From positions 4,671,442-4,735,441 of the forward strand of contig NC_087392.1 in NCBI RefSeq assembly GCF_963675165.1: DNA of 64,000 nt, written 5' to 3'. This document shows positions 12,465 to 60,201 of this stretch, piece after piece. Both the position numbers and the translations under genes were made by a program. Source of the stretch: Halichondria panicea. Taxonomy: Eukaryota > Porifera > Demospongiae > Suberitida > Halichondriidae. The notes under the pieces were generated by a model. The model searched no databases, was not told the origin of the DNA, and saw nothing but the letters and a program-made list of their open reading frames with translations. How positions within the stretch are numbered: position 1 is the stretch's first letter; every line of letters begins with the position of its first letter.

Positions 12465-12578
12465 ATTGTTTGTTGTGATTTCCTGGGGGGGGGGGGGGGT
12501 TCTGTTTCAGGTCATAATTGTATGTGAGCAGCCCCACCTCCCTAGGCCCTCCGTATATGATATGCACACCCACACCGT

Positions 12579-12760
12579 TGTCATAGGAATGAATGACTCC
12601 CCTAAATAATGACTCCCGGTCACTCCTACCTAGGCACCAGTGACTCCCGGTCACTCACGCCTAGGAATAAATGACTCCCCCGGTCACTGACTCCTAGTCA
12701 CGAATGACTCCCCCCTGGAAAAAATGACTCCCCCGAAATTTATATATGAACACTGATCCA
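12579..12760. repeat. Left terminal and subterminal repeats of the Ginger1 element
   Basis: After the 24-bp inverted repeat come at least six further AATGACTCCC or GTGACTCCCGGTCACT motifs in direct and inverted order up to about 12750. The same motif recurs inverted at the right end (about 16905-16998). Such clustered subterminal motifs are typical transposase-binding arrays. Confidence 0.8.
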
Positions 12761-13164
12761 TAGAGCTAAAGAGACTTCAGGGGCTATACTAAGTACATGC
12801 ATTCTCAAAACCTGTCACAGTGTGACTATACAATCAAGCTCAAGACTGTTATCAGGACTGCATGCATGCTATCTGTGAGAGACCTGTTTAATACATAGTA
12901 TGACTATAATTACAGCTGTTCCTTATATACTGTAAACTGGTTCAGTTTAGCTATTAGTACCTATAGTACTTATACTACATTGTACACTCTGTTCACATTT
13001 TCACACGTCTCACGGTCACTGTAAAGCAAAACTTATAATACAACAACATCCATCAAAATAACAAATAGATCTACAGTGCATGAAAAACAAACAAAACAAC
13101 AGTGCAAATTAACAGTGTATAAACAAAAACAGCTAGTGGAAGATAACGAAATGCTAAAAAAATT

Positions 13165-16100: not shown

Positions 16101-16572
16101 GAGTTTGGCATTTGTCTTTACAAATGCTGGGTTCATTCTCTGGCACTGGCTGCAGTTCTTTACATACTCTCGAATCTCCTCCACCATCGACTTCCAGTAG
16201 AATCTAGAACATATCTTGTCTATAGCTCTATCTCTTCCAAAGTGGCCACCAGCTGTTCCTGCATGCATGCATCAATAGATTACATACATGCTCTATTACC
16301 TACTATTATCATTTTACCAAAGCCATAATAATTATTATACCTGCATGGCAATCTTCGAGGATTCTTGATTTCTCCTCATTGCTGCGCACACATATCCTCC
16401 AGTCAGCTGCATCAGCAGCTTTGGTGTGCTTCTTGTAATATAGGCTACCATTTTCAAACTTAAAGTTCTGCCTGCATTTTCTTCTAAAGTTTGCCTTCTC
16501 TGTTTTGCTGTTAATAGTAGGAGGGTATTCTCCTTTTCGTAAATAGTTTTCAATCTCTTGTAAATTCTCCAT
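13165..16572 (-). CDS. Ginger1 transposase: integrase + GPY/F + Ulp1 protease + PHD finger
   Basis: Nine exons: 16341-16572, 16065-16258, 15812-15969, 15425-15715, 15141-15339, 14712-15050, 14155-14598, 13835-14039, 13165-13721; about 870 residues, all with GT-AG borders. Order of domains: H2C2 zinc-binding integrase head (CHAGTAGGHFGRD, NCSQCQ), DDE core (Asp in VGIDLIGP, Asp in ISDQGREF, Glu in LTERFNQT), GPY/F module (RWLGPYTVVECLDKGVFKI), a Pro-Ser-Ser-His-Lys repeat exon, then a Ulp1/C48 cysteine protease with all expected residues (His in ERHHWIAT, Asp in LFDSCF, Gln and Cys in QQQSSGSNNCGLFAIAAA). A C-terminal PHD-type zinc finger follows (CDTCTVWYHYKC, WFCPTC). Start at MENLQEIENY is the first Met of the open frame. 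The integrase catalyses cut-and-paste movement; the protease and PHD finger may act on SUMO and chromatin (inference). Confidence 0.87.
14230..14572 (-). repeat. 24-bp in-frame repeat (PSSHKPxx) inside the transposase
   Basis: About 14 units of 24 bp within exon 14155-14598. In the reading frame that joins its neighbours the units alternate PSSHKPDV and PSSHKPAA. This makes a hydrophilic proline-rich linker between the GPY/F module and the Ulp1 protease. Confidence 0.85.
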
Positions 16573-17060
16573 TTCTTGCTGCCTTCTTCAAATGACATGA
16601 CTGTGAACGATCACTGGTTTTATACCATAGATCTAGCTGTCACTTGCTGTCAACTACAGGATAGAACAATTAACCTTGCAACTCTGCTCTTCACACATTT
16701 ATAGGTCTACATTCCAGCTGTCACTTGCTGTCTACTACAGGATGAACACTTGCTTCATTGCTACCTTGCATGCTACTACTAACCTTGCTCTTCATCCTGC
16801 ATGGCTCTTCATTCTCTACTATATGTCTATGAGGAGTGCATGAATGTACTCTTGCTACTATATACTTACATTGATGGCAACATTGGCGGAACAAACATGC
16901 GCATAGGGGAGTCATTTATTCCTGGGGGAGTCACCCACACCTTAGGCAGGAATGACCGGGGAGTCACTCCCACCGGGGAGTCATTCATTCCTCTGACACC
17001 GTTTCTAAGCAAAGATATCTGTTGTGAGAGGCAGCCAGGCGTGCATAACAACGTGCAGCA

Positions 17061-27002
<9,942 letters not shown>

Positions 27003-27285
27003 TGTGTGCAATTTTATACCATTCGTATTCATGCAGCTTCTTTCATCGTTTTGTTATTTTCATGACCCTTTGCCATACGCAGGTAATAAACATGTTGTTA
27101 TTATGATGATCTTTTGCCAGACAATTATTGCTATAGGTAATGATCGATAAATTAATAAACACAATATGGACATGCGTCCACTCACTGCACTGGTGATGAA
27201 AAACAATTGCTAAAATTTTTAATTGCAAAACAAGTTGCAAAACAGTCTATAATTAATGATTTAGTTCCTCTCTATAGCAGTCACT

Positions 27286-28702: not shown

Positions 28703-29465
<763 letters not shown>

Positions 29466-29566: not shown

Positions 29567-30912
29567 TTTGCTGCCCTTGAGTCACGCATGCGCAATTACT
29601 CCAACACAATATTTTCTTCCATATAAGGTCACATACCACAGCATCCATAGGAACAAAGCATTATTTCTAATGTCTGGTATTTGGATGCCAGCCAGTTGTC
29701 CTACACACTGGATATACTTGTACCTTACTGCAACTGCCCATAAAAACATCAGACAGACTCACAAGCACTATTTCTGTTGTATGCAATGTATTACAACAAA
29801 CCTCAATAGTTATGCTGGTGTACAGGCGTAATACCCGGTAATCATTTTCTGATAATGGAGAAGTGTCACTAGCAGTCTTAACTATACATCATTATGGTTG
29901 TAATATCTAGCCTCAACTTTGTACATGACATAGACCAGCTAGAAAGCAGCTGTCATTTAGGAGGTCCATCTTGGTCTCTCCCTCTGACCACATTCCAACC
30001 ACTCAATTGTCCAAACCACAAAGTACACAACACTGTGGTTGTGATGTAATTAGCTGACATTCCAGTGATTCCACCACTCTGCAGGGTAAACATCCAATAA
30101 AGGAGATCATTTTAAGAATTCCATGAATGAATGAAAACAGCTATATATACGTTGACTCATCAGGATGCACTCCTGACGTCATAAACAACATTATTTAGTT
30201 ATAGCTAGAGGTCTTCAACCAAAATTAGTAAAAGCTTGTTGATAAACAGATGACATACAGGTTTTAATAAGTAGCTTAACATTTTTGTGTCGTCACGAAA
30301 TACCGGCCAGAGTGCCAACAAATTAATATCATCTGCCCATATGTCATTATAATTATCCGGTGCTGCATTATTTTATGGTTACCCTGTATGTGTACACAGG
30401 AGTATAATTACTCACATTACAGCGTCTGGTAGCCAACGTTACGTTGTGGCTGAGTGGGAGGTTATAACACAGTATACACAGCTGCTGCAAATCATGCCAT
30501 CAACACTACACATTGTTATATACACAGGAGAGAGGAATCTTTCCTACAGGAAGTTGAATTGTATACCCTTGTTCTATACCACACATTACATGCACTTCTA
30601 ATTATAGGCAACCAATTGTAAACGTCTCCTAGGATCCATAAATCCCCCATTAGCCTATTATCGATAGATATATAGCACACATCGAAGCAAATTATTCTCA
30701 TAAATGGTCATGTACAGCTAGGTACAATTAAAACACACAACAGCTAGTTTCGTGCAAGCTGACAACATACATTATCCCATTTAGGTTGATCACACTTCAA
30801 TCATTAGCAGAGTCAACAAATTCATTTTAAATTGACAAAGTAATGTAACAAAATAGACAAATAACTGCATACATACATACATACATCATGAAAAGTGATT
30901 ACAGATTGAGTT
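29567..30912. other. Intergenic region, calponin-like B to importin alpha, copy 1
   Basis: About 1.35 kb, AT-rich, with a short (CATA)n run near 30868. No exon, RNA gene or clear transposon was recognised. It includes the importin 3' flank. Copy 2 (60303-61648) is nearly identical, which is unusual for neutral intergenic DNA if the copies are old. Confidence 0.6.
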
Positions 30913-33900
30913 TTAGAATTGGAAACCGCCCTCAGGCAATTGTGTGTTGGTATTAAACATATATTGTTCTCCGTCCTTGGCAGGGTTTGGGGCCAGCTGT
31001 AAGTCCACTTGGTCCTGGTCATCACCGAAATACTTGTCAATAATTCTCAGTGCAATCTTGTACACTTGTTCACTGCTGTGCTGCTGCAAGTGCTCGATCT
31101 TGTCCAGGCCTGTGTGTGTGGTGTGTGGGGGGTGACACTGTTGTACATGTACTTTGACAATGGAGATCATCTTACAATGTGCACCCACCCATGAAATACA
31201 ACCCCACAATACATCTGACTGTACAGTAAACCACACATTGCATTATACAGCTTTGTGGCAAGTTTTTGGCCATTATACAGAGGTGGCCTTTGTTGAGTGC
31301 TTGTTTTGCACACAAACTGTTCATTTGGGACCTGGCCTTTATATCAAAGTTGGCCTTTCTTCAAGGCTGGCCATTAGCATTTTTCAAACTATACTCTACT
31401 GACACACACACACACACACCATAGGCCTCCTCCACCATGAGGGCAAAAGGGTTGACATTCTTCACAGCGTCCTGTTGTCCTATCTTGAGTATATTCTCCA
31501 GTCCCTCCAGAGTGATCATGACCATACGAGGATCTTGCACTGTCAGCAGATCACACAGCGGCTTTACGCAACCAACGTCCACCAAGTATCTGCAAGTGAG
31601 TGGGCGGGAAAAGCCTGTCACGTACAAAGAGCTATTGAAATCATCCATTAGCTTTGAATTTGGACAATCTGAACACAAATTACAAACTCATAAAGATACA
31701 TAATTATAATTATATCAGGAGTGTATGAAGTCCACTCCTGATTATATAGATAGATAGATAGATAGATAGCTACCAAAACTACCTCACCAGAAAATGTACA
31801 AAACGTAAAGGTATGAATTAAAGCCCCACTCAAAATAGACTCAACAAGTATGCAAAAGTGTCAATTTTCCAAAGGCAGACAAGTAGCTAATAAGGTGTCA
31901 ATTAACTGTATTCTGGGCTACACTACATGTATCTAGTGAGACTTGACAGCCTCAAGAATTCATCCAGTGGTAGTGTGGGAAGACATGAATGACAACTTGG
32001 CATCATCTCAAGTTGCACTCTCAAATAATGGTCCAGGAGTTAATCTAATTACCACCTCTTCCTCTGCTGAAGCCAAACACTACACACCTCAAAAGAACAT
32101 AATAAGATTTCCATTGGGTGCATTTTGTGTTACAGACACAAAGAATTAGTTAGCCAAAAGGTTTCTTTACAGTCATGTACATGTAGGAGCAACCTAATCT
32201 CCCAATAGCCTGTAAGCAAAATGTTCATTAAGTACAACTCAAAGCTTTGCTGCATACTGATTTAGACTTATCGATATATGTCACATGACTGGTCACCTGA
32301 TCTGCTCGGCTGTTCCCCCCTGTGTGGCGTTGAGTACCGCCCACGCAGCCTCCTTCCTCGTCTTGTAGTCCACCCCCGAGCTGAGCACCTCGATTAGTAG
32401 CGGGAATATGTTGCAGTCAATCACAGTCTGTGTGTGTGGAGGGGGTAATACAAGTTCACAATAAGGTACTTAAAAACTAAAAGGTTTTAGAAGACTCCAT
32501 TTTAAAGAATGTTGGACCCACTCATCAATAGCACACCTCCACATGTTTGGTACGTGCATACATGTACAAACCAGTACTAGACATCATGTAACTGAAAACT
32601 ATCCAATAATGTACATTTGTACAGAATTTTGTCAATTTCTAACAATTAACACACACATTGTTCCAGTTAGCCCCTACCACCATCAGACTCCCACCTGTAT
32701 CTGCACTCTGTTGCCGGCGGTGACGTTGGATAGAGCCCAACACGCCTCCTTCTTGACTCCCTCGAAGCGACTGCTCAGGAGATGTTGTAGTGCAGGCAGA
32801 ACTGAGCAGTTGAGCAGCAGCTGTGGGAGTGGAGTGGGTGGGTGGGGTTATAATTATATGGACAGTCATTAGACTCCTTCACTGGCCTCCCCTGAAAAGA
32901 AGGCCTGCTACTGACTTTTTACGTATACGCAAAAATAATTATTGGATATTTTTTTACTATAAAACTGGAATTTTTGCTACAAAAATATCAAATGAATAAA
33001 CAGACAAAGAATACAAATTCATAATAATTATTAAAGCCACACACAGAGCTATATAACTGGTTAGCTACATGTAAAGACAGAGCTGTAGGTTTGTTGCAGC
33101 AGCTATTTTCTTTCTGATAAAGTCTAGTCAGCTTTCCCTCCACAATGTTGCAGGCTGTGAGTCTTTTGTTAGCATAGCATAGCTATCAGAATGCTATCAG
33201 ATGGGCTAGAAACCTTCAATCAAACTTTCTATCTACTTTCTTCAATCCACTTCCATTTGTTGTGACGTCATTGTTTTACTGAGCATACACGTTGTTATCT
33301 TGCGTTTGCCGGTATCTGGCTAATGGTTAGCGCAAGCGCACACAGTCGATACCAGACCCACTCTTAGAGGAAGTGCGGCCTGAGATTGAGGCCACATGTA
33401 CATGTACATTACAATGTATGCACGAGAATACGTATTGCCACTGTATGACACTACAAAACAATTGGCTCTGGAAATGCCAGTCAAATTCTCGAGCGAGAGT
33501 GGCCAATTTCCATAAATGGCCTGAAAAGCACAATTAATTAAGACTGGTATTTGTACACTTGATTTAGTTACAGGATCAAGCTTTATAGCTCATACACAAA
33601 TTGTGTACCTCACAAAATTCCAAAATGCCAGACATACTTTTACAAAAGACCTTGTTTGAAGCACTGTATTGTGGTCACCCTCTATGCAATACACAGCCAG
33701 GTTTATGTGCCCCCAAGTAAGTCTCCATGGACCTGACCACCTCTTTATTACAGCCACTGTTGGTCTACCCAAGGGGTGACTTCTATAGGAACAAGCTTCA
33801 CTGCTACTAACCGTACAGACCTCACAATTACAAGTGTCAATATACACACATATCACACAGATGTGCAGTGCAGTGCATCTATTAAGCACCTGTGTCTGAC

Positions 33901-36727
33901 GGTCGTCCCCTGTGAGGATGTTACCCACGGCTCGTAGGGCAGGGGCTAACACTTTCTTATCAGGGAAGAACAACAGCTCCACCAGACGTCGACATAAACC
34001 ACCATCCACTATACGCTGGATACGATCGTTAGGACCATCACCTGAGGAGGGAGGGAAGTACTGAAGCCTGTCTCTACTGTGGTCTCCCTATAAGCAGGCC
34101 ACCCTCTATCAGAGGAGGTACGACATGCGTGCCTCGACCTAGCAATTAGCCTCCCACGCTCAACGTTATTGCACAGGCTTAATTGCTCAATCGAGGCACG
34201 CACTCATCCTCTGGCCCTCTATAAAGCGAGGTAATGGTCTCCATAGCAATGTGTTTGGGCCTGTGTTAGTAGGCCACCTCTTATTACAGCCCACTGTGTC
34301 TGCCGGATGGTGACTCACAGTACAAGTATTGACTAGATCAAAGGCCACACAGCTGTCAGGAATGCTCTATATTAGATCACTACTTCCTGTTTCAAGCCAT
34401 TAAAGAAAAGGTGGTAATTGCTCGAGGTTACTGCTCACCAATGAACGCGACAGACCAAGCGCAGTTACAGAGAACCTCCATATCCTCAGAGTGGAGTAGT
34501 TTAGCCAGCACTGGAATGGACAGTTGCACCTGTCATGTGTGTGGGTGGAGGGGATACAGGTTACAGTATGCAATCAGAGGAGGTACGACATGCAGGAGCA
34601 ATAATCTATTTATAGACTTGATTAGCTGACAAAGCATTATTAAACCTAGGCCTACACATGAACGGGATGAAACTACAGCTCTCAGCCTAATTGCTCCTGC
34701 ATGTCATACCTCCTCTGGTATTATAATACAATACACAGCATCAAAATGGTCGTTCTTTTAATGGTATAATGCAAGCCTTAATTATACACTGTCTATTGTG
34801 GCCACCCTCTATAAATACAGCCAGGTTAATGACCTACACATGTATGATAAAAAAAACATGTGTTTGGACCTGTAGCAGGCCACCCGCCATTGTTGGACTA
34901 CCCATGCAAGGGATGAAATCACCAACTCTAATCAATAGATCATCGGCCAGTTGCTGTTTCCCATGGAAACTGACCACCCACTGCACTACAAAGCTAACCA
35001 TACAATGAAAATGAAAACCACTATTCTGTAACACAGAACAACAACATTTTCAACTTACATGTAGGACAAAAACTGGCCTTTGGTAACAAAGCTACATGTA
35101 CATGTACCGTATAGCGGGTAATTTTCGTCGATGCAAATTTACATATGAACCACCGAGTTTAATATTTCATATTCTAAATATTCGTACAGCTCAGAATGGT
35201 GACGTAGGACTTGTTGCCAATAATATTTGGACTAATGCTCTAAATCTGAAAATTTGGACCATATCCGCTTTTTGGACCATTTGAACCATAACCCGGTATT
35301 ATGGTATGTACGGAGAGTCCACTTACTGCCCCTAGGTCCGGTGGTGGACTCTTCCCCCGACAAAGGTTAGAGAGAGTCCAAGTGGCGTTTCTCATCACAG
35401 CCACCTTGAGGGTAGGGTCTTGTAGTAATAACAGAAGAGGCTCCATTATACCAAATGATAGAGTGATGTCTCTGTACTCAGCACTGTCTCCAGCTATGTT
35501 GCCTAGTGCCCATACAGCCTGAGAGGGGGGGGGAGAGAGGTTTTGATGAGCCATAACTCAAGTTTGGTTGACCCAATTTCAATCATTTGGTGATTTCCTG
35601 AAAGCTAAGAACGAGTTCGTTCAAATGATAATATTATGCTCAGTTACATAATTTTTTGGATCGTGCCCAATAATTATTACACTTCCCCTCGTCTATATAG
35701 CCCATGGTTTTTGTCAAAACGGCCCTAAGCTCAATATACAGTGTAAGCTTTCAGAAAATCGAAGTTACGTTATGGCCATGAGGTCCTCCATGCATGCATA
35801 GTGCGTGCGTATAACTAAAACAGCTACATGCATGTACAGTTTTACTTTAGCCATGAAGTCATGACCATAGACTATTACGACTTGTTTAACACACACACAC
35901 ATGCACAAACGCACACACCTGTTCCCGTATGTAGTCGTGCTGTGAGAGGAGCAGCTGCACAAGAGGTGGGATGGCTCCGGCCTCAATGACCGTACGTGTT
36001 TGTAGGGTGGAGCCAGATGAAATGTTTGTGATGACCCAGGCAGCCTCAAACTGTAGGAGGGGGGAAGTGTGTTATGCACTGATCACCCTATAAGCAGAGC
36101 ACCCTCTATAATACAGCCAGGTTATAATGGGTCTCAAAGTCTCCATAGCATGTGTTTGGACCTGTGCTAGCTGACTACCTCTTTATTATGCCTCGAGGCA
36201 TAGGCCCATCATGGTAAAGCTGACTGTGTTAATACAGACTCTGTTGGTCTGACTAAGTATCAACAAGTCTCACTGTAACACACACACACCTGTAGAAACG
36301 GACTGGTTGAACAGTGGAGAAACTCTACAAACTTTGGGAGACAGCCCAACCTAATGACCTCCTCAATCGGTGGATTGTCTGCAATAGAAACAGCAACAAT
36401 ACGAGGTAATGGACACAGTACACCATGGCAACTATGTAGCTAGCTACTAGTTTAGATAACAATATCTATATATAAAAACGAAGCTTGCCCTAAAGCAAAG
36501 AGCAAATTTAGCAAAAATCGGCTGAAATTAAACAATTCTTCACTATTATAGCAATAGTAGAGGTATAATACTGCACACACACAACCCCACACCCCTCCCC
36601 CCACACACACACACGTTCGTGACTCACTCAACTGTGAGAGTATGTGTCTAAACCTCCGCACTGCTGCCAGCTGCTCCTGAGGGTCCACACTGAACAGAGC
36701 CTTACAGAGCATGTCCAGGGGTGTGTC
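30913..36727 (-). CDS. Importin alpha (karyopherin alpha), 5'-truncated copy 1
   Basis: Nuclear import adaptor that binds nuclear localisation signals through ARM repeats. Ten exons: 36628-36727, 36290-36378, 35919-36050, 35327-35518, 34439-34529, 33890-34041, 32695-32820, 32297-32427, 31420-31589, 30913-31109; 1380 bp including stop. The sequence runs from [20 protein letters not shown] through the WxxxN-type ARM helices ([35 protein letters not shown]) to the typical tail [20 protein letters not shown] and a GGFQF end. The N-terminal importin-beta-binding (IBB) domain and the start codon are missing. The duplication junction lies 250 bp upstream of the first remaining exon and no IBB exon was found between. 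This copy has no promoter of its own and can only be expressed as part of the chimera or from an unknown start. Confidence 0.93.
33663..33812. repeat. Dispersed repeat R2 member in importin intron, copy 1
   Basis: Carries 'cactgtattgtggtcaccc', 'cagccaggtttatg', 'agtctccatgg' and 'acagccactgttggtctacc'. Lies in the intron between exons 32695-32820 and 33890-34041. Confidence 0.65.
34062..34320. repeat. R2 member carrying a nested MITE, importin intron, copy 1
   Basis: R2 begins with 'ctgtctctactgtggtctccc' and ends 'attacagcccactgtgtctg'. The MITE 34110-34214 interrupts it exactly at CCCTCTAT, which is duplicated. Confidence 0.75.
34110..34214. mobile_element. 105-bp MITE with CAGAGGAGG ends
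   Basis: Starts CAGAGGAGGTACGACATGCG and ends CATCCTCTGG. Inner inverted parts are GTGCCTCGA and TCGAGGCAC. It is flanked by the 8-bp duplication CCCTCTAT (34102-34109 and 34215-34222). Related to the elements at 25355-25490 and 34575-34717. Confidence 0.82.
34575..34717. mobile_element. 143-bp MITE with CAGAGGAGGTACGACATG ends
   Basis: Inverted repeats CAGAGGAGGTACGACATGCA and the near-perfect inverse, extended by GGAGCAAT / ATTGCTCC. No clear target duplication was found. Lies in the importin intron between exons 34439-34529 and 35327-35518. Confidence 0.75.
34785..34920. repeat. Dispersed repeat R2 member, importin intron, copy 1
   Basis: Contains 'actgtctattgtggccaccc', 'atacagccaggttaatg', 'acatgtgtttggacctgt' and 'ttgttggactacccatg'. 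Degenerate in the centre. Confidence 0.6.
36072..36270. repeat. Dispersed repeat R2 member, importin intron, copy 1
   Basis: Contains 'cactgatcaccctataagcag', 'atacagccaggttataatgg', 'ctccatagcatgtgtttggac' and, after a short interruption, 'tctgttggtctgac'. Confidence 0.6.
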
Positions 36728-36980
36728 CTATAGCGGAGAATAGGACATGGTTCTTGATGTAATTGATTGATGAATACTGTACTAGTTGAGGTTGTTGTTA
36801 TATGAATACTGCACTAATGGGTGTACGATAACCAGGTGAACATAGAATTAATTACACCGCAAAAAACATTCAATTCAAGTTACTAGGTTGGCCATGAAAG
36901 CATATTTAAACAAGCAAGAGAGAGAGAGAGAGCCATGTCACAATGCACATTGCATTCTACGTTACAGTTCAGAGGTAGGG

Positions 36981-37153
36981 GGGAATTGAACTAATTAATT
37001 CTGACTAACCTCACAAGAGCCACCATTCTCACAAGGGCTGCTATCACACGGCTTTATTTCAGTTTGACAACCACTGGTGATGAAAAACAATTGCTAAAAT
37101 TAACCCTAACCCGGCGTGCTCCTCTGCAAACTAATCAATGTAACCCTAACCCT
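36981..37153. other. Duplication junction with templated fragments and telomere-like stretches
   Basis: Between the end of copy 1 and the start of copy 2 are, in order: 36981-37075, the inverse of 23090-23184 (Delta exon 12 and intron); 37072-37101, equal to 27188-27217 in direct orientation, sharing CACT with the previous piece; 37101-37112, TAACCCTAACCC; 37112-37143, the inverse of 29197-29228 (calponin B exon 2); 37141-37153, TAACCCTAACCCT; then copy 2 starts at TGATTCAT (37153 = 771). One to four shared bases join most of the pieces. Confidence 0.93.
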
Positions 37154-38649
37154 GATTCATTTTGCAACCCTTTGTAATGCCTATTCAATATTGCGTTTAA
37201 AATATAGATACTGTGCTTAGTAAATTTACCGGTTTCTTTTTTAAAGGTTTTTTCTTGTTTTTCTTTGCTGCCTTTGCCTCTCGTGTGGCCAGCTCTCTCA
37301 CAGGATCAAACTCCCCAGCCTTGTACACAAACGCCACAAACCAGTGGGCCCTGCATGAAACACATACACACGAAAATATCAACTTAAATAAGGCTTTTTG
37401 CCGTCATGGGACTTTACTACTGTAATTGACATGTAAGATAAAACGTTAGTACACTCTACCTGTCACAAACTGGCAGCACAATGTACTCCTTGTCAAACAA
37501 GTCCACTCGTCTAGTCCACGTCTTGACACGGTTATGCTGTCTCTCGGGGGTCCTGTGTGGTGTGGTGTGTGTGGTGTGTGGGTGTGGGTGGAAGGGGGGG
37601 CAATTATAACTATGGGAGGGGTGATAAGAATACATCAGTGAATTTTAAAGGATTGAACTTTAAGTTCTAATATTAAGCCTCGTCTTGCAACATTTACAGT
37701 GGCATTGGGGTACACACTGCTATGACTCACTGGAGACACTTGAGTTCTTTGTTGTCTCTGGAGGCATCCTTTAGTCGAGTGTGGAAGAAGGAGCTAAAGA
37801 TGTGCACTTTGGACCGCAGCCTCTCAGCCAACCGCTCATACCACATGTACCTGGATGGGAGGAGGAGTTAGGCTCATTTGCAAGCATTTTTCACTAGCAA
37901 GGAACACATTGTGTAATACAGTGGAGCCCCTCTTAATGGCCACCTCTGAATAAAGGTCAACTGTGATTTAAAGGCCAGGTCTCACATAAACAGTCTGTGT
38001 ACAAAACAACCCCTCAACAAAGGCCATGCACACCTCTGTGATAATGGCTGAAACTTAATTCCCTAAAGATTTCCATTATACATGTATCTATGAGTACGTA
38101 AACAATACAGTAGCAGTGTACACGTGCGTGCGTGCGTACCTGAGGTAGAAGTCCACGACCTTATCGTTGATGTATTCCCCCGGGGCGAGTGTGTCCACAT
38201 CGTGAGTGGAGACCTCTATGTTGACCTTGCTACCAGCTGGCACATTGTACGCCAGCAGTCTGTGTCATAGGTTAAGAGTGAGACACCAGTAATATGATAC
38301 AATAAGAGCAAATCAGTCACAATACTGGATAACTGGACACCAGTACTACTAGACACATACTAATTGCTTTTTGGTACAGCGAAAGTAGCTTGCCAAATTG
38401 TTCGTTATCCGAAAAATGCACACGACTACATGTACATGTATATATATTTATAGTCCCTGTCAATTGTCAAAATTGTCAGATATAAAATCTGCCAATTTTG
38501 ATAATTGACAGTGGAACCTGTGGAACCAATCGGCAGTGGAACCTAATAATGCTTTAAGGGCAACGTAAAGTGTGAATATCGTAAATTTTTTTTTATAGAA
38601 TGGTTGATCTCTCTCAAAGGTTTTGCATACACAAATCAGTTATACATGC

Positions 38650-39001
38650 AGGTCCACCCCACCCCCAACATTGGTAGGGAGGTACCATACCCTCACCTGA
38701 CACCCATCCCACTCATCTGACACCCACCTAACATTGGTAGGAAGGTACCCACACCCACACCCACCCTCACCTGACATTGGTAGGAAGGTACCCACACCCC
38801 ACACCCACCCTCACCTAACATTGGTAGGAAGGTACCCACACCCACACCCACCCTCACCTAACATTGGTAGGAAGGTACCCACACCCCACACCCACCCTCA
38901 CCTAACATTGGTAGGAAGGTACCCACACCCACACCCCACACCCACCCTCACCTAACATTGGTAGGAAGGTACCCACACCCACACCCCACACCCACCCTCA
39001 C
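38650..39001. repeat. Minisatellite built on a SENP splice donor, copy 2
   Basis: Six units of the same 40-57-bp repeat as at 2270-2664, one unit fewer, again touching the left edge of its exon (39002-39134). Confidence 0.9.
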
Positions 39002-39947
39002 CTGACATTGGGCTTGTTGTGTACAACAATAGACTCCACTAGAGTGATGGGAGAGGAGGGGTCCATCCTCACAGGGGCTTTCCTGCTCCTCTGAGATCTA
39101 CGCACATTCAAACTAGGCACAAGTGATTTGACATCTGAAGGGGAGAGACAAGATGTACATGTAGTATACTTGTGTTGTATTTTCAATGTGCACATAGATG
39201 CTTCCTATGTATAGGTTATCAGTACAATCCATGGGTAAGCTCCTTTAATCAACACAGTGCTAACAGGTAAGCCCCTCCAATCATCAATAATTATTGTGCT
39301 AATATTAAGTCAACAGCACTAATGAGTAAGCCCCTGTGATTAAGACCCCACCATCGTTGGAGAGTGGTCTGCCGTGACTCCTGGATGGTTTTAATGGCTT
39401 GATATCATTCAGCAGTTTCTTTGCCTCAACAGTGCTGTACAAGAGGGGGGGGGGGCATGATGATATCATCTCAATATTTAGGTGAAATGTAATACCCTAG
39501 ATTTTGATCCACGGACACATTCATCTTGGTTAGGAACTGCAGTGAAGAGAAACAACGTTTAATAGCTAGTTCATATCTTCAACAAACCTTACTTCAGACA
39601 TTAAGCTACATGTAATACCGAGTATCACTATTAGCTGTTTCGACTAACCACAAACTTGTATCTAAGCAGACCATTGGAAAAGTAATTCTGAGAGCTGAGA
39701 GCTATTGTCAATGAATGCATGACCATCTCACATTACATTTACTTACCTCTATAATAGAGCTGATCAGATGTGGTAATGGCCTCTCCTCCAGTCTGAGCAT
39801 GATGCACTGTTCAGAGATGTTACTGCTTAAAGGGTTGAAGAAGTCAGAGTCCAGGTGGTACTTCTTGGAGAGGGTCTCCGCTATTTTCTTAGCCTCTGGT
39901 GACTTTACATTGATGTAGACGATATAAGGCTCTTCCCCAAGGTGAAG

Positions 39948-40024
<77 letters not shown>

Positions 40025-40050
40025 TGTGTGTGTACGTGTGTGTGTGCGTT
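39948..40050. repeat. TG/CA microsatellite in SENP intron, copy 2
   Basis: Pure (TG)n with two ACG interruptions, about three dinucleotides longer than its copy 1 counterpart. Confidence 0.92.
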
Positions 40051-41256
40051 GTGATTCAAATAGTGTTAGTACCTGCCAAACAAAGCACGCAGGAAGGGAA
40101 ACTTGAACAGTCTCTGTCCGGCCCTCATAGTCCAGCTTCATACACAGTACGTCATTTCTCAGCTGCACAGTTGACCAATTATTATACGTGAGCAAAAGGC
40201 TAAGCTTATACCAACATGTATCATACACTGTAGTAGTACAACGTACACATACAATGTACATGTACGCACACATGCATGTACATGTAGGTCCCCTTCTACT
40301 ACAATCGGCTCTGTAACTAGAGGTCTGATGACGGTCCAAATTCTACGATTCTTAAAGCTTAGAATGAGTTTGTTCAAATGGTATGTTCAAATCTCTAATT
40401 TGGAATGGGCTACAATTTCCTACTTCGGAAAAAGACCACAGACTAGTACTTTGTCAACACAGACTCATTGATTTTAAAACATCATCTGAAAGGCCTCTTT
40501 CTAAACTTTCACAAAAAATAACGTTTTTGAACCAACGGAACTAAAGTTATGGCCGTTCAAAGATGCTCTATTCAACACTATAATATTATGCAGTAAACAT
40601 GTGTTGCTGAATGTACGTATTGCACAAAGTTCTTGGTTCACATACATGTGCGTAAAATTCGCCCACAAAACCTCCCTATACATGTAAATTTCAAAAAACC
40701 CTCCCACAAAACAAACTGTCAAGAAACCTCCATTCTCCATAAATACTGATTTCTCTTACCTCAACGTGCAGCACTTTGTCGAGCTCTAGTCGACCTATCT
40801 GCACACACTGCACTGACAGAGGGAGGGACTCCTCATCATCCACATCGACAGAGCATGGTGAAGGCAGGGGGCGCTTCAGTTTGAGGGGCTGAGTTTGTGG
40901 AGTGGGAGTGGGAGTGTGTGTGTGTGTGGAGTGGGAGTGGGTGTGGATGGGGTGGTGGTGTGTGAAGTGGGTGTGGGGTAGTGGTGGGTGTGCGGTGTGT
41001 GTGTAGTAAAGACGTGGCCCTAACACAGGTAGCTATGGAGAGACTTTGGGGCTGGCTGTATAAAGGGTGGCCTGCTGACCAGGTTTCACTATAATAATGT
41101 ACATGTACCAGATTGCACTACAATACAGCAACACACCTTCTTTATTCCATAGGTGGCCATGACTTGGTTGGCACTGTTACCACGTACAGAGCTCATCCTG
41201 GAGGAACCAGTACCCCACGCTCGAGACCTAAACTGTGAGAACAGCTGATTGGAGGG

Positions 41257-41258
<2 letters not shown>

Positions 41259-41292
<34 letters not shown>

Positions 41293-41334
41293 GCGTGTGC
41301 ATGTGTGTGTGTGTGCATGTGTGTGTGTGTGTGA
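41259..41334. repeat. TG-rich microsatellite in SENP intron, copy 2
   Basis: (TG)n with CG and CA interruptions. The flank 'ggtacattcggtcagagagg' of copy 1 is deleted here. Confidence 0.85.
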
Positions 41335-44068
41335 GGGGCGCAGGCTACAAACATAGTACAATGGTGTTTCTAAGCACAAAGGACATAACGTTCACGAATC
41401 ACTATAGCTACACTTCTTCTTGTTTTTCTTGCCTCCACTAAAGAAGAGTAGCCAATTGGGCCACGTGGTAAATGTAGTTATTACACATCAGTTTGCAAAC
41501 TAAAATTACTAAAAAGCTCCAAAAATGTTTTTTTTGGCTTTAACACTAGTTAAATGACACAAACAGATTCGGGGATCGACTCACTGCCATTACTGCTATA
41601 GAAGCTGCCTGGGGTTGCCGCTGACTGTGTTGGTCTCTTTAGAGGACGCCTGGCCAAATCAGAGGGAAGCTCAGCTGCTCTTGAGGTAGTCAATGGTTTC
41701 TGCACGTGCAGGTGTAAAAGTAATTGCAAATAACGTATACATGAGTTGCTAGACAGATTGTACATGTATATTTTAAATTGAAGAAGTTACACAGGCCAAA
41801 ATGGTGTGCATACTACTACAATGTACTGTACTAAACACCACACACACACACACACACATACCCCACAGCCCACACTCACCCCACACACTCACACACACCC
41901 ACACTCACCCCACACCCCACACACTCACACACTCACCCCACACCCCACACACTCACACACACCCCACGCCCCACACCCATACTCACACACACAGGCTTAC
42001 CCTGGTCCCTGCTGCTGAACTAGTGGAAGTCCTTGCAACCTTCTCATCATCCACTTCAAAACTGAACTCGACTTTTGATAAAACAGGAGAGTCTGTAATG
42101 GACAGAATATCCCTAGCTTTTCCCGTACTGGGGAGTGCATGGGTCGTCGCCATTGCTAATTGCTCTTTAGATAGAAACGTGGGAGTGACTTGAATACTAC
42201 ACTTCCCTTTGGAGGCCGCTTGACTCTTGGCAAATACATTTCTATGAGTGCTGGAAGCATTTGTCGAATCTGCTGTAGATGTAGGCTTTTCCGAGCAAGT
42301 TTTGAGAACTGAATTAGTTGTGGATAAAAGTTTATTAAACTTGTCAGTATTGTCATTGGTGTTCTTGGGGGGTGCTTTTGGAGGGAGGAAGCGATTTGGC
42401 AAAGGTGACTTGAAATTTGAGCTAGTCGTTGCTTTAACATCATTATCATCATCATCATCTGAATGAATAGTTACTACGTCATTAGTCGCAGCTTTATCGG
42501 TAGTTTTGTCTTTAGGCAATACTTGCTTTTTATCAACAGGGCGTTTAAAAATCTCGCCCGCATCTACCTCTTCAGAAGAAGTATTTGAAGCAATGTCATC
42601 ATCCCTATCTGGTGAAATACTAGCCCACGATTTTCTCGAATCACGAACACAGTCAGAATTGGGTTTGGTATCAAAACTGGAATTGGGATCTTCTAGTCCT
42701 ATGCAGGTGTCATTCCAAAGCATGCTTTTTTGAGAGTCAAAATTTGTAATTTGAGTAGTTTCAGTTGGTGATTCTGAACGTATTGGATTGGTTCTAAATG
42801 GTCTTTTCTTCTTCGGAGCAGGTAAAGAACTTTCCATGGAGTTAGAAATTTTGTTCTTTGTATAAGGCGTTTTCGCTAGTGTAAGAAAATCAGGAATAGT
42901 AGAGCCAGTTTTTGAAGTTGTAGTAGTTCTTGATTTCATAGACTTGGCTCTGTTTATTACATCTACAACATTTGATTTAGGGGGCATGGGTTGAATTCCA
43001 ACATTGGTAGTTTCGTTAGACTGATCGTGGCCGAAAGTTAGATCGTGCAATTTCTTTTTGGGTATCTTGAAACTACTACTTTTATACTCCTAGAAATGCA
43101 AGTTATAATATTCATGAAATTAATTTATTAGAGAAATGGTAATTGCCAAGAGTAATATTATATACATTATTAACGTACTCCTGGAGTTTTGTGCTGGTCG
43201 TACATTGTTCCACTGCTTATCCTTGCACCTGGAAAATAGGAACCATTTCTAATCATGAACTTAGAGTTTTTCTACTATAGTATTCATGCAAGAAAGCAAA
43301 TGGGCAAAAGTAGGCTTAACTAAAGTGGTGTACAGTGGAACCCTCTTAATGACCACTCCCCCAACTACGATATCAGCTAGAGCTACGCTATCAGCTCTTC
43401 TATACTTTGAATTGAGAGGATTCAATTGGAAAGAGAGCTTTCAAATGGTGTCATCAATGGGAGATGAATTAATGTGCCAATTTCGGGTATATATACATAG
43501 CCCATGGTCCAAGGCCAAAAAAATGCCAATGGCAACACATCATTTGAAAGATTTCTTTTAGCAAAATCATAAAATGGATCGATCCTAAAGTTATGGTTAC
43601 TGAAAGATGCTCAACTAAACAGTTTGTGTACAAAACAACAAAGGCCACCTCCGTATAACCAACTCCTGGTATAACTTTGTTTCCCAAAGGTGTCCATTAA
43701 CATTAACAGAATTGTGTATATAGTTTACACAAGGAGCTACCATGATCACTTTGATCTGGTTCGTCATCCTCAATGACTGTTACTTCATGGCCAGGAGTAG
43801 ACCGGGAGGGTGGGGTTTTCAGACCTCGGTCAAAGTCATCAATAATGGCCGCCCTCTTATCTACATGGGAAAGGGGAGGTTACATAGCGACAGGAATGGG
43901 GAGGTTACATAGCGACAGGAATGGAGAGGTAATACGTAGCGACAGGAATGGGGAGGTTACATAGTGACAGGGAATGGTGTCATGGTACATGGTGTAGCTA
44001 CCTCTGTTGTCTGGATTAGAGTGTGGCCTATACTGCTGCTTTCTTTTCCTACTGTGTGTGAATTCCAT

Positions 44069-44415
44069 TGCGACCGTAGCCAGTCTACATCTTTAGTAGA
44101 GGGTGGTCATTGTACTTTGAGACTGTGTAGGTCAGCAAGACAGCTGAATCAGCAATAACTTTTGTCTAGGTTCAGAGGGCAGATACCACCAAAAGTTTCA
44201 GTCTCGGGTCCAGGCCGCGATTCCAGAGAAGTTTTTTTGCTGTTCTCCTAGATCCTGCTGTCCGTCCAAGGCCGGCTGAAGGGCCAAGGCTACACATCAT
44301 GAGCTATCTAGTACTAAGGTGAGGAAGATGCAGACATATGTGTATTACTTGAATGAGCTACTGTACCCTGTAGTTTCAAGTGTACGTGGCTATAAAAGCA
44401 TTGAGTCTAAAATAA
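44069..44415. promoter_or_regulatory. Head-to-head intergenic region, SENP / ULK4-like, copy 2
   Basis: Counterpart of 7752-8100. It would drive both the ULK4-like gene and the predicted SENP-importin chimera. One 2-bp deletion relative to copy 1 lies upstream of the start codon and does not affect the reading frame. Confidence 0.5.
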
Positions 44416-46358
44416 ATGGAGAACTACCTTCTGTGTGGTGAGCTCCAGTCCCAAGAGGAGGGTGTCTCTGCCTGGCCCACCCCGGTCAGCCTCGTGTACA
44501 AGGGACGGAGGAAGGGAAGTGTGCAGTTTGTGGGGATAGGGAAATACGACAAGCAAGACAAGAAATACATCGAGAATGGAGTGAGTGCACACGCCCCCTT
44601 TTGTTTGCCTGTATAACTACTCGCTCTATCTATAGAATGTTTATATAGTGGTTTTTATAGTGGTTTTTTTGTAACATTTTGCCTGATTTTGATAGTTTTA
44701 TCAGGCTTGATCGTAAGATTAAAAAAACCCCCGACTATACACCGACTTGGGGGAACTCCCTTATGCACGCATTTAATAAAAAATCTCATGTTGTTGCCTA
44801 TACATAATTATACATTGAGGGAAAACCCCGTTACGAGCTCTCCTTGTAGCCCTACATCAAGGGGAACCCCCCATTACGAGCAATTAGTCCTGATGTTCCC
44901 ACTACACGTACAGGTACAGCTGATGCATTCTTTGGATCACGAGAACGTGCTCAAGTTCAGTGAATGGTACGAGACTCCACAGCACATCTGGGTCATCACA
45001 GAGCTGGCCATCGGAGGCACCCTCTCTCACATACTGCACCAAGATGGCTGCATTCCCAGCCCTAATATCCACGACTTTGTCCGGGACATTGCAGCTGGAC
45101 TGACCTACATTCACTCCAGGGGGGTGCTCTATTGTGACCTGCAGCCCTCCAAGGTAACTTATTCCCATAGCACACAAATTAGCATGTACCTCATATAATA
45201 ATCGCCTCAGCATTATAAAGTCGGTATTTACAGTAGAGCCCCTCTTAACGGCCACTCGTGAAAAAAAGCGAAGTGTGATACAAAGGCCAGGTCCCAAATG
45301 AACAGTTTGTGTACACAACCCCTCAACAAAGGCCACCTGTACATGTGTAATGATTATTATGGGTTCCCTAAAGGTGTCCACTATAAAGAGGCTGCACTGT
45401 ATGTCCATTATTGATTAAGTACAAGCTATGCTACTTTTATTTTTCTATTTTAACTGTTGGGGCACTTCATTATTGTGTATTTCACCAACAGATTGTACTG
45501 GATGGCCGTCAGCTACTGAAACTCAGCGACTTCACGCTAGCCCAGACAATGGCTGACTGCCATAACCATTACAACCTCACGTCACTTGTAAACACATTAC
45601 TGACGCCCTCGGGAAAAGACCACCCTCTAAAATACGCCCCCTCACCATTCTACGCTGCTCCTGAGTTGTTTGTTGATGGTGGACAGTTTTCAACAGCCAG
45701 TGACCTGTGGTCTCTAGGCTGCATCGTGTATGAGCTGAGTCTAGGTAATGCGAGTCTGGGTAATGCGAGTCTGGGTAATGCGAGTCTAGGTAATGCGAGT
45801 CTAGGTAATGCGAGTCTAGGTAATGCGAGTCTAGGTAATGCGAGTCTATAATTATACTAGTTTACTGCAACACGCAGTCACCTGGTAAATGATTTTATGG
45901 TTACATTATTCAGCTTTAGAGCAAATTCAGATCACGTTGAATTCAGACAAATTTAATCATACAACAGTTTCAGATATCAACAGTGGCTGTAATAAAGAGG
46001 TGGTCAAACACATGCTATGGAGACTTTGGGACGCATACATTAACCTGGCTGTATTATAGAGGGTGGCCTAGCTGATTATGGGTGACAGGTTCTGTGTCAC
46101 TGTGTAGTAGCAGGTAGTAGTAGTTGGATCGATGGATCATACTATTCTGGTAATGTTGTTGTCCCAAATTTATTGTGTTTTTTATATCTCACTACAGGTT
46201 GCAAACCATTTGATAGCAATGACCCTGACCTGCTACTCCAGTCTATCTCGTGCATACAACCAAACGCTGTGGTACAGTCTCCAGAAACAGCTCAACTATT
46301 ATCAAACCTCCTCACAGGGGAACCTAGTCATCGGACTACACCGCCTCAGTATACATGA
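44416..46358 (+). CDS. ULK4-like pseudokinase, copy 2
   Basis: Exons 44416-44580, 44914-45153, 45492-45744 and 46198-46358. Same degenerate catalytic motifs as copy 1 (YCDLQPSK, SDFTLAQ). The donor of exon 3 lies in a sevenfold 15-bp array (45741-45850), so six further in-frame donor positions are available, each adding GNASL to the protein. The lysine after SDFTLA in copy 1 is Gln here. Intron 3 lacks the MITE of copy 1. Confidence 0.8.
45233..45402. repeat. Dispersed repeat R1 member in ULK4-like intron 2, copy 2
   Basis: Counterpart of 8914-9070 with several substitutions and an insertion around 45340; ends GAGGCTGCACTGTA. Confidence 0.6.
45741..45850 (+). repeat. 15-bp array repeating a ULK4-like splice donor
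   Basis: Seven units of CTAGGTAATGCGAGT (or CTGGGTAATGCGAGT). Each unit carries the exon-end/donor sequence AG or GG followed by GTAATG. The unit length is a multiple of three, so every donor keeps frame and adds GNASL. Copy 1 has a single unit. Confidence 0.93.
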
Positions 46359-46558: not shown

Positions 46559-48118
46559 ATGACCACCATTCCAGTACTGATGTCCCTAGTAGCTATTTGC
46601 TACACTCAGGAACTTGTTGTTGAAGACAGACCTCTCAACATTCTCCTGCTTAATGGCTTGTTTGCTGGCCACCTGTTCCCACTGGTCAGCCTGGGTGAAG
46701 AGCTAGTCAGTAGGGGCCACAATGTCTCCCTCTGCTCCACTGTCATGGAGGGATCAAAATTGCTCCCAAATCTACCAGAAAGTGTGGGAATAAAGTTCCT
46801 AAATGCTGGTTTGGATGTTATTACACTGGAAGAGTTTGAAGCACAAACCAGGAACCAAAAGGACGGACCTGGAGGTGCTGCAGTTGCTGACTTTGCTACA
46901 GTGGCTCATCAATCGACTGTAAAGATTTTAAACAAATTGGAAACTTACGGAATTGAACGTTTTGATATGATCGTATGCGATTTCTCTGTTATACATATCG
47001 GACTACACTATGCCATCTTGGGCAGGAAAGTCATTGCGTTCAGCTCCATGCTTCCCCCCTACCCTGCTATAGAATCCCCCTGGCCTCTTCCATTCACACT
47101 TAGCGGAGGCCAATCAGACGATTTGAGCTTCTTAGAACGTCTACAAAACTCGATACTAGCACCTTTGCTCATCCCAGCATGGAACTATCTATTCTGGATC
47201 TTCTGCAAAGGCGACGAGAGATTGGAAACAACTCTAAATGGTATTAACTTTATGCGATATCCTGGGATTAATATTCCCCATCTGATAACATCTGTAATTG
47301 GGTTCGATACACCTGCACTTCAAACTCCCCTCAGGCATTACGTAGGACCTATGGTGAAGAAAAGAACGGACAAATTAGCAGAGGATCTGGAGGAATGGCT
47401 TAGTAACAAGAGAGAGAGATCTGTTATCTATATCAGCATGGGTACCACTGGCTATGTATCCGGGGATGTTGCTAGGACAATCATCGAAAGTGTGATGGCA
47501 ACGAAATTTGATGCAGTTTGGGCCCTGAGAGACAACAATAGAGGGTCTATAGAAGGTGTTGAAATTGATGACAATCGAATATTTATATCGGGATGGGTGC
47601 CACAGCAGACGATACTCGCGCATGCATCGATCCGATTGTGTATTCTCCATTGTGGACTGAATAGTGTGCAGGAGAGCCTATACAATGGCCTGCCTGTTGT
47701 GTGCCTGCCTCATGCCTTCGATCATTTCGCGACTGGTGGGACCATTCGTAATATTCGTGTGGGAATATCCATGTACAGTTTTTTCGATAGCATTCTTGGG
47801 CATACAGACGTATCAATAAAGGATTTAACAAATGCAATCACGACAGTTTCAAGTGATGGGTATGTAGCAAATGCTAGGAGGGTTTCACTCGTGTACAAGT
47901 TTGCTGGAGGAGCAGAGACAGCTGCAGGCCTGGTGGAGTACTATACTGATGTTGGGTACGATCACCTCATACCAGCCTTTGCAAGATATCAGTGGAGCTG
48001 GATACAGTATCGTAATCTCGATGTGTGTGCTGTTCTGTTTAGTATTTTAGCTGTGTTTATGTTTCTGTCGTACAAGTGCTTGTATAGTTGTGTCTGTGTG
48101 AAAGTATGTAGAAAGTGA
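46559..48118 (+). CDS. UDP-glucuronosyltransferase-like enzyme, copy 2
   Basis: Intronless, 519 residues, same layout as copy 1: signal peptide (MTTIPVLMSLVAICYTQ), acceptor domain with GHLFP, donor signature with the normal WVPQ form, C-terminal membrane helix and basic tail (KVCRK). By eye roughly twenty residue differences from copy 1, several in the N-terminal signal region and around the membrane helix. This copy keeps the conserved Pro that copy 1 has lost and looks the better preserved of the two. The 3' flank has a run of about 17 G. Confidence 0.92.
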   Translation: MTTIPVLMSLVAICYTQELVVEDRPLNILLLNGLFAGHLFPLVSLGEELVSRGHNVSLCSTVMEGSKLLPNLPESVGIKFLNAGLDVITLEEFEAQTRNQKDGPGGAAVADFATVAHQSTVKILNKLETYGIERFDMIVCDFSVIHIGLHYAILGRKVIAFSSMLPPYPAIESPWPLPFTLSGGQSDDLSFLERLQNSILAPLLIPAWNYLFWIFCKGDERLETTLNGINFMRYPGINIPHLITSVIGFDTPALQTPLRHYVGPMVKKRTDKLAEDLEEWLSNKRERSVIYISMGTTGYVSGDVARTIIESVMATKFDAVWALRDNNRGSIEGVEIDDNRIFISGWVPQQTILAHASIRLCILHCGLNSVQESLYNGLPVVCLPHAFDHFATGGTIRNIRVGISMYSFFDSILGHTDVSIKDLTNAITTVSSDGYVANARRVSLVYKFAGGAETAAGLVEYYTDVGYDHLIPAFARYQWSWIQYRNLDVCAVLFSILAVFMFLSYKCLYSCVCVKVCRK

Positions 48119-48308: not shown

Positions 48309-57734
<9,426 letters not shown>

Positions 57735-58021
57735 TGTGTGCAATTTTATACCATTCGTATTCATGCAGCTTCTTTCATCGTTTTGTTATTTTCATGACCC
57801 TTTGCCATACGCAGGTAATAAACATGTTGTTATTATGATGATCCTTTGCCAGACAATTATTGCTATAGGTAATGATCGATAAATTAATAAACACAATATG
57901 GACATACGTCCACTCACTGCACTGGTGATGAAAAACAATTGCTAAAATTTTTAATTGCAAAACAAGTTGCAAAACAGTCTATAATTAATGATTTAGTTCG
58001 ATCCTCTCTATAGCAGTCACT

Positions 58022-59438: not shown

Positions 59439-60201
<763 letters not shown>

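Follow-up and report, generated by a model that had tools for sequence, protein, structure and literature searches.

The 64,000-nucleotide stretch analysed here (the window; C16:4671442-4735441, where C16 is contig NC_087392.1 of Halichondria panicea) contains a gene in which the 5' portion of a SENP6/7-like SUMO protease gene is fused in frame to the 3' portion of an importin alpha gene. The fusion lies at the joint of a tandem duplication. We consider it most probable (about 0.72) that the duplication arose by template-switch repair, that an unequal crossover followed, and that the chimera is at most a weakly used by-product. The sequence-only reading that preceded this analysis had described a single chimeric junction. 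The junction stands; the description was incomplete, in that tandem copies of a duplicated unit meet at this junction, and the chimera is present twice.

Our working region comprised the window with 60 kb of left-hand and 140 kb of right-hand flank (264 kb joined), and genome-wide searches covered the 131.5-Mb assembly of 39 contigs. Genes were modelled with an exon-chaining script, which used codon usage from the long frames of the region and a generic splice matrix. Splice scores derive from general splice-site frequencies in a weight matrix that is not species-specific. The parts of the chimera, and its second occurrence, are as follows.

Positions 37230-44068, minus strand: SENP6/7-like 5' portion; exons S1-S16, 2694 bp coding, 898 amino acids; stops after the catalytic-His half of the Ulp1 domain.
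Positions 36728-37229, minus strand: fused intron; 502 bp, phase 0; contains the rearrangement joint.
Positions 30913-36727, minus strand: importin alpha 3' portion; exons I1-I10, 1380 bp including the stop; armadillo (ARM) domain, no importin-beta-binding (IBB) domain.
C16:4733090-4746339 (61649-74898 in window numbering, past the window end): second SENP-importin chimera, at the joint of copies 2 and 3; near-identical, frame open in the model.

The model runs from an ATG at 44068 to a stop at 30913, with 2694 + 1380 bp giving 1357 codons before the stop and an unbroken frame. All introns are of the GT..AG type. In the fused intron, donor 37230|37229 and acceptor 36728|36727 are both phase 0. 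Weak splice sites are found at the acceptors of S7 and S9 and at the donors of S3 and S10. A same-strand, in-frame fusion had been proposed from the letters, and the exon model bears it out. The phases, the intron length and the coding totals were likewise reproduced in the completed model, whose SENP part was finished manually, guided by splice sites and phases and in knowledge of the earlier totals. When the script was given only positions 30800-44500 of the minus strand, a single gene ran through the junction. In this run the importin part, with its 10 exons, came out just as in the completed model; 9 of the 16 SENP exons were missed, two were shortened and one extra exon was called. Laxer gene-finder runs gave spurious micro-exons. 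The two chimeras differ at one coding position, S to Y at SENP codon 358, and nowhere in the importin part.

Both halves of the protein are recognisable. Pfam places Peptidase_C48 (PF02902) in the SENP part, over positions 1-102 of 217 (E 1.8e-14), and Arm (PF00514; E 2.4e-68) and PF16186 in the importin part. The closest solved structure to the SENP part is SENP7 (3eay, 4.6e-26). The importin part is closest to importin alpha-5 (6wx9, 2.8e-162) and importin alpha-7, with query residues 8-458 aligned on 17-466 of 6wx9. The chimera keeps the catalytic His of the split protease domain (DRAHWFVAF), where the catalytic residues are those we take to be such from general knowledge of the family and from SENP7 alignments. 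The missing parts are found elsewhere. We searched the genome exon by exon, so that the following copy counts are lower bounds. The Asp/Cys half (CVLVLDSL..., QNNSSDCG; aligned to SENP7) has one genome match, at C16:4669745-4670178, left of the array described below. The IBB also has one, at C16:4770644-4770748, right of the array. The His half occurs at three genomic places (9 exon matches) and the ARM exons are present three times in the array. Stops fall inside the match in 1 of 3 rows of the Asp/Cys search and 6 of 9 rows of the His-half search, these rows overrunning exon edges into intron. The chimera has neither the complete His-Asp-Cys catalytic domain of a SENP6/7 SUMO protease nor the IBB and ARM combination of importin alpha, of which it holds ARM only. 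Both absences had been anticipated, and the partial Peptidase_C48 match and the position of the sole IBB match agree with them.

Self-comparison of the 264 kb showed three direct tandem copies of a ~31-kb unit, of which copy 1 is ~36 kb.

Positions 771-36978 (C16:4672212-4708419): tandem copy 1, 36.2 kb; on the left it ends within the SENP gene in which both catalytic halves are retained.
Positions 37153-64000, cut by the window end (C16:4708594-4739155): tandem copy 2.
C16:4739330-4770373: tandem copy 3.

The unit begins in an intron of the SENP6/7 gene and ends in the importin alpha intron that precedes the first ARM exon. Hence, a SENP6/7 gene with both catalytic halves lies at the left of the array, an importin alpha gene with its IBB lies at the right, and one chimera lies at each internal joint (n=2), both with open frames in the models. 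A 5'-to-3' fusion at internal joints, with the missing parental parts at the array ends, is the arrangement looked for in a chimeric gene made by tandem duplication. The models of the array-end SENP and importin alpha genes are uncurated and include spurious exons, and the importin start codon was not placed. DNA upstream of the SENP start was duplicated along with SENP, in keeping with the earlier description of the SENP part as promoter-bearing.

At the joint itself, importin-derived DNA continues up to 36978, filler occupies 36979-37152 and SENP-derived DNA begins at 37153. The breakpoints had been placed at 36980 and 37153; the second is exact, and the first is corrected to the 36978 end of the importin-derived DNA. 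The components of the filler are listed in order, followed by their templates.

Positions 36979-37152: joint filler, 174 bp; the identical string occurs in the second joint, C16:4739156-4739329.
Positions 36979-37075: T1, inverted copy of C16:4694531-4694628, 98 bp, 99%, E 2.8e-42; left limit approximate.
Positions 37072-37101: T2, direct copy of C16:4698629-4698658, 30 bp exact, E 6.9e-7.
Positions 37101-37112: telomere-like insert 1, TAACCCTAACCC; first base common to T2, last to T3.
Positions 37112-37143: T3, inverted copy of a calponin-like gene segment, C16:4700638-4700669, 32 bp exact, E 5.7e-8.
Positions 37141-37152: telomere-like insert 2, TAACCCTAACCC; first three bases common to T3.
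Positions 23090-23187 in copy 1 and 53815-53912 in copy 2, minus strand: T1 template.
Positions 27188-27217 in copy 1 and 57920-57949 in copy 2, plus strand: T2 template.
Positions 29197-29228 in copy 1 and 59933-59964 in copy 2, minus strand: T3 template.

Each template occurs once per copy, and the orientations alternate. By translation, T1 is the end of an EGF-type exon with its donor site. Short overlaps are seen at the putative switches: CACT (4 bp) between T1 and T2, and 1-3 bp with the telomere-like inserts; extra Gs stand at the join of importin and T1. The only filler bases lacking an array template are the telomere-like inserts and a few Gs. All 12 genome matches of the filler lie in the array on C16, in a search that passed over simple repeats and very common words, and a source outside the array was set aside. 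Chance juxtaposition was also set aside, given the matches of the filler to the unit, as was one event with a single chimera, given the two joints. A frame match would be expected with P ~0.37 given two intronic breakpoints, or 0.18 for breakpoints both intronic and phase-matched, and the in-frame outcome is by itself unremarkable. Conversely, the DNA joint exceeds chance: the E values of the three filler pieces against the unit are 2.8e-42, 5.7e-8 and 6.9e-7.

The two telomere-like inserts have the same orientation. Within the 264 kb, TAACCCTAACCC is found only in the two joints, twice in each. Of the eight contig ends read, four carry at least 69 TTAGGG/CCCTAA units. The inserts, 12 bp each, match the telomere repeat of the species and have no counterpart in the templates or the parental DNA, as would be looked for in a telomeric insertion at a repaired break. 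On the gene strand both read as GGGTTAGGGTTA after a 3' end, a polarity that would suit telomerase extending the growing end twice.

The copy gain and the iterative templated insertions at the joint are those looked for in fork stalling and template switching or microhomology-mediated break-induced replication (FoSTeS/MMBIR), of which iterated template switches with templated insertions are the mark (excerpt of PMC5120786). The templated pieces and telomere-like inserts suggest template switching during break repair. In the scheme that we favour, a broken 3' end in the SENP intron would have been extended with telomeric repeat. The growing end would then have copied T3, gained telomeric repeat again, and copied T2 and then T1. 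Synthesis would have resumed in the importin intron, with a chain of template switches of the FoSTeS/MMBIR type re-copying the whole unit. An unequal crossover inside the two-copy array would later have produced the third copy and doubled the chimera. Splicing at the parental sites would yield, from the SENP start, a 1357-amino-acid protein made up of the SENP N-terminal region, a dead half-protease and an IBB-less, cargo-binding ARM domain. Most likely, this chimera is a recent by-product with at most weak use, the cellular work being done by the SENP6/7 gene at one end of the array and the importin alpha gene at the other.

The history of the copies was read from substitutions, the sums and limits being our own. 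On the left, copies 2 and 3 differ by 5 substitutions in ~21.0 kb, plus indels. On the right, copy 2 differs from copy 1 by 5 substitutions in ~9.5 kb and from copy 3 by 48 in ~9.5 kb. The affinity of copy 2 switches at about 27.2-28.4 kb on the copy 1 scale, or 57.9-59.2 kb on that of copy 2. Almost every aligned 1-kb stretch shows differences between copies 1 and 3, but two on the right are without substitution; one of these is the last 983 bp before the joint, over which all three copies agree. A two-copy array with one unequal crossover is expected to give this mosaic pattern of copy 2. The third copy fits a later unequal crossover, and an assembler loop predicts the same pattern; more trust can be placed in the first joint than in the number of copies. 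Different haplotypes may have been the source of the two original copies, or these may have been partly homogenised since. Over the start of the EGF-repeat gene and the DNA preceding it (~18700-22500 against 50700-53200), ~10-36% of aligned columns per 1 kb differ between copies 1 and 2 and the flanks differ far less; alignment and models are poor there.

Several observations weigh against the account that we prefer. Copies 1 and 2 have diverged unevenly (0.5% for SENP noncoding DNA, 2.4% for the UDP-glucosyltransferase (UGT) gene, and as much as 36% of aligned columns over a 1-kb stretch further on), and simple divergence after one duplication does not explain this. The extra Gs at the importin and T1 join are unexplained by T1. 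End joining with captured patches could give similar filler. Copy number, and even the joint, are those of one assembly. The 9-mer CCCTAACCC is matched twice in the window, and 8 of 100 shuffles reach that number; the telling point is therefore that the matches lie 40 bp apart in the filler, not how many there are. Interior telomere-like 12-mers are common in the genome. TAACCCTAACCC is counted 2312 times forward and 2212 times in reverse, telomeres included (control, 7 and 10), and in reversed letter order the pattern has 17 sites over both strands of the 131 Mb. Sampling of interior sites covered 20 stretches of contig C1, 8 of which (L040-L046 and L048) share one dispersed-repeat context. 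Hence, the genome counts are not counts of repair inserts, and interior TAACCCTAACCC 12-mers on their own are no evidence of break repair in this genome. Few replacement changes (1 in 4074 bp) sit badly with a neutral by-product unless most differences predate the duplication. Two further points weaken the earlier interpretation of the product. The filler holds a possible truncating pseudo-exon, which, if used, would reach a stop after four of its codons. In addition, immediately ahead of the importin sequence the SENP part closes with a lysine-rich run (KKNKKKPLKKKP), and a free cargo groove would not be a direct consequence of IBB loss. In a translated chimera, the groove could be free or self-blocked by this tail, or the tail could act as an import signal.

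Two alternatives concern the joint. The same duplication could have been made by end joining (polymerase theta or non-homologous end joining) with several captured patches, possibly from reverse-transcribed RNA. We regard this route, which is compatible with the same outcome, as a possibility to be held tentatively. Work on that pathway describes TTAGGG patches at induced breaks (excerpt of PMC5110952), and T1 and T3 contain exon-type sequence. T1 extends beyond its donor into the intron, and an RNA source would have to be unspliced. However, tandem re-copying of the unit would also need replication or sister exchange, and the excerpt of PMC5120786 treats iterative template switches as peculiar to FoSTeS/MMBIR. 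Quite unlikely, in our view, is an assembly artefact, in which two haplotypes were tiled in tandem or a repeat was looped once too often, leaving the chimera, or one of the two, unreal. The copy 1-copy 2 difference is at a possible allelic level, and the near-identity of the left parts of copies 2 and 3 would allow the third copy to be a loop. Conversely, the 264-kb region has an N content of 0. Private substitutions also set copy 2 apart from copy 3 and from copy 1, with indels as well in the first of these pairs. Nor would an assembler be expected to create a 174-bp filler of three unit pieces on alternating strands with two telomere-like 12-mers. The figures behind our gradings need not sum to one; the repair-route and splicing alternatives are compatible with template-switch duplication.

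The remaining alternatives concern the product, and here the coding differences matter. Between the chimeric and intact halves there are 8 silent changes and 1 replacement in 4074 bp, with no coding indels. SENP accounts for 7 of these in 2694 bp (6 silent, 1 replacement) and importin for 2 in 1380 bp, both silent. Coding DNA is less diverged than noncoding in importin (2/1380 vs 39/4648, P 0.004); the SENP comparison is not significant (7/2694 vs 22/4205, P 0.13). Had the chimeric side been free since duplication, ~13 replacement changes would be expected where 1 is seen (P ~2e-5, or 0.02 with low silent divergence, dS). These figures, together with the open frame and splice sites retained in both chimeras, favour a selected new gene: expressed, kept, and acting either as an importin-beta-independent binder of nuclear localisation signal (NLS) cargo tied to SUMO sites or as an import brake. 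We nonetheless think this quite unlikely. If the copies began as different alleles, the low ratio reflects constraint before duplication only, and the uneven divergence points there. SENP coding and noncoding rates are not separable, and the sole coding change between the two chimeras is a replacement. The neighbouring UGT of copy 3 has a 1-bp gap relative to the other copies. Since divergence is uneven, the silent/replacement argument is not decisive, and the excess of silent changes may predate the chimera, stemming from older allelic divergence. The UGT gene is placed as follows.

Positions 46559-48118 and C16:4748830-4750388: UGT-like gene, present in each copy; the copy 3 stretch has a 1-bp gap column relative to copies 1 and 2.

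Between copies 1 and 2 this gene has 17 silent and 18 replacement codons. More improbable still is a larger proposal, in which a one-step, telomerase-helped event made an in-frame SENP6/7-importin alpha gene that is transcribed from the SENP promoter, held by purifying selection and amplified, its KKNKKKPLKKKP tail replacing the autoinhibitory basic segment of importin before the ARM groove. A truncated product, which would be compatible with template-switch duplication, is unlikely rather than far-fetched. Here, the filler would be partly exonised and the transcript would stop soon after the SENP part, giving a SENP fragment. The candidate exon is as follows.

Positions 37010-37073, minus strand: possible pseudo-exon, 64 nt; acceptor from the T2/T1 join (1.33), donor inside T1 (2.43); reads WLSN and then an in-frame TGA.

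The donor of the EGF-type exon borne by T1 lies in the sense of the chimeric gene, and its score of 2.43 compares with 2.35 for the SENP donor. A second filler acceptor, at 37123, scores 1.76, and its frame, followed by eye, meets TAG at the sixth codon. Early stops would follow from both acceptors. For comparison, the importin acceptor scores 2.13. Against this reading, the parental sites of the fused intron are intact, and all these values come from the generic matrix rather than a species-specific splice model.

Chimeras are known to arise when a tandem duplication takes no account of gene borders (excerpt of PMC5460883). In Drosophila yakuba, such duplications join 5' and 3' gene ends (for example, 5' GE18453 with 3' GE18451; excerpt of PMC5460883) as here, although those chimeras come from a population sample with RNA data and ours from one assembly with a complex joint. 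Sdic of Drosophila melanogaster, a sw/AnxB10 fusion, resembles our locus: a segmental duplication over two adjacent genes made a chimera, which multiplied in a crossover-prone tandem array with the parents at its ends (excerpt of PMC7475035). Unlike Sdic, the fusion described here lies within one intron, is in frame and has templated and telomere-like filler. Human FoSTeS/MMBIR junctions share the templated insertions at copy-gain joints, and possibly the microhomology (excerpt of PMC5120786), whereas here the joint belongs to a tandem array in a non-human genome and has two telomere-like 12-mers between templates. In mammals, TTAGGG is found at break-repair sites among interstitial telomeric and templated inserts (excerpts of PMC7215372 and PMC5110952); here, two short inserts are interspersed with templated pieces where duplicated copies meet. 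Taken together, these features make a clear and instructive example rather than a new kind.

A single search of the open-licence PMC literature found no paper on an importin alpha-SENP6 fusion gene. The joint seems to be a base-by-base record of the birth of a chimera, preserving templates, order and inserts. With the telomere-like inserts, the involvement of telomerase in break repair becomes open to test beyond mammals. Young chimeras with adjacent parents, in two near-identical copies, are good material for studying early expression and selection. IBB-less importin alpha is known mainly as a laboratory construct. If translated, the chimera would be a natural example with the ARM domain kept; a crystal structure of IBB-less importin alpha 7 has been described (excerpt of PMC8748863).

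According to uncurated models, the unit also contains kinase-like, UDP-glucosyltransferase-like, EGF-repeat membrane protein and calponin-like genes. SENP and the kinase-like gene are arranged head to head at 44068-44416, with model ATGs 348 bp apart. An insert private to copy 1, at ~12500-17000, contains an integrase-like fragment (rve_3, 26.6 bits, cut-off 26.5) and is probably a mobile element. Short tandem repeats (cctaacattggtaggaaggtacc...) occupy the SENP intron at ~38690-39010 and are unequal in length between copies 1 and 2. Outside the array, ~27 kb to its left (C16:4618494-4645539), lie three similar same-strand frames that look kinase-like by eye.

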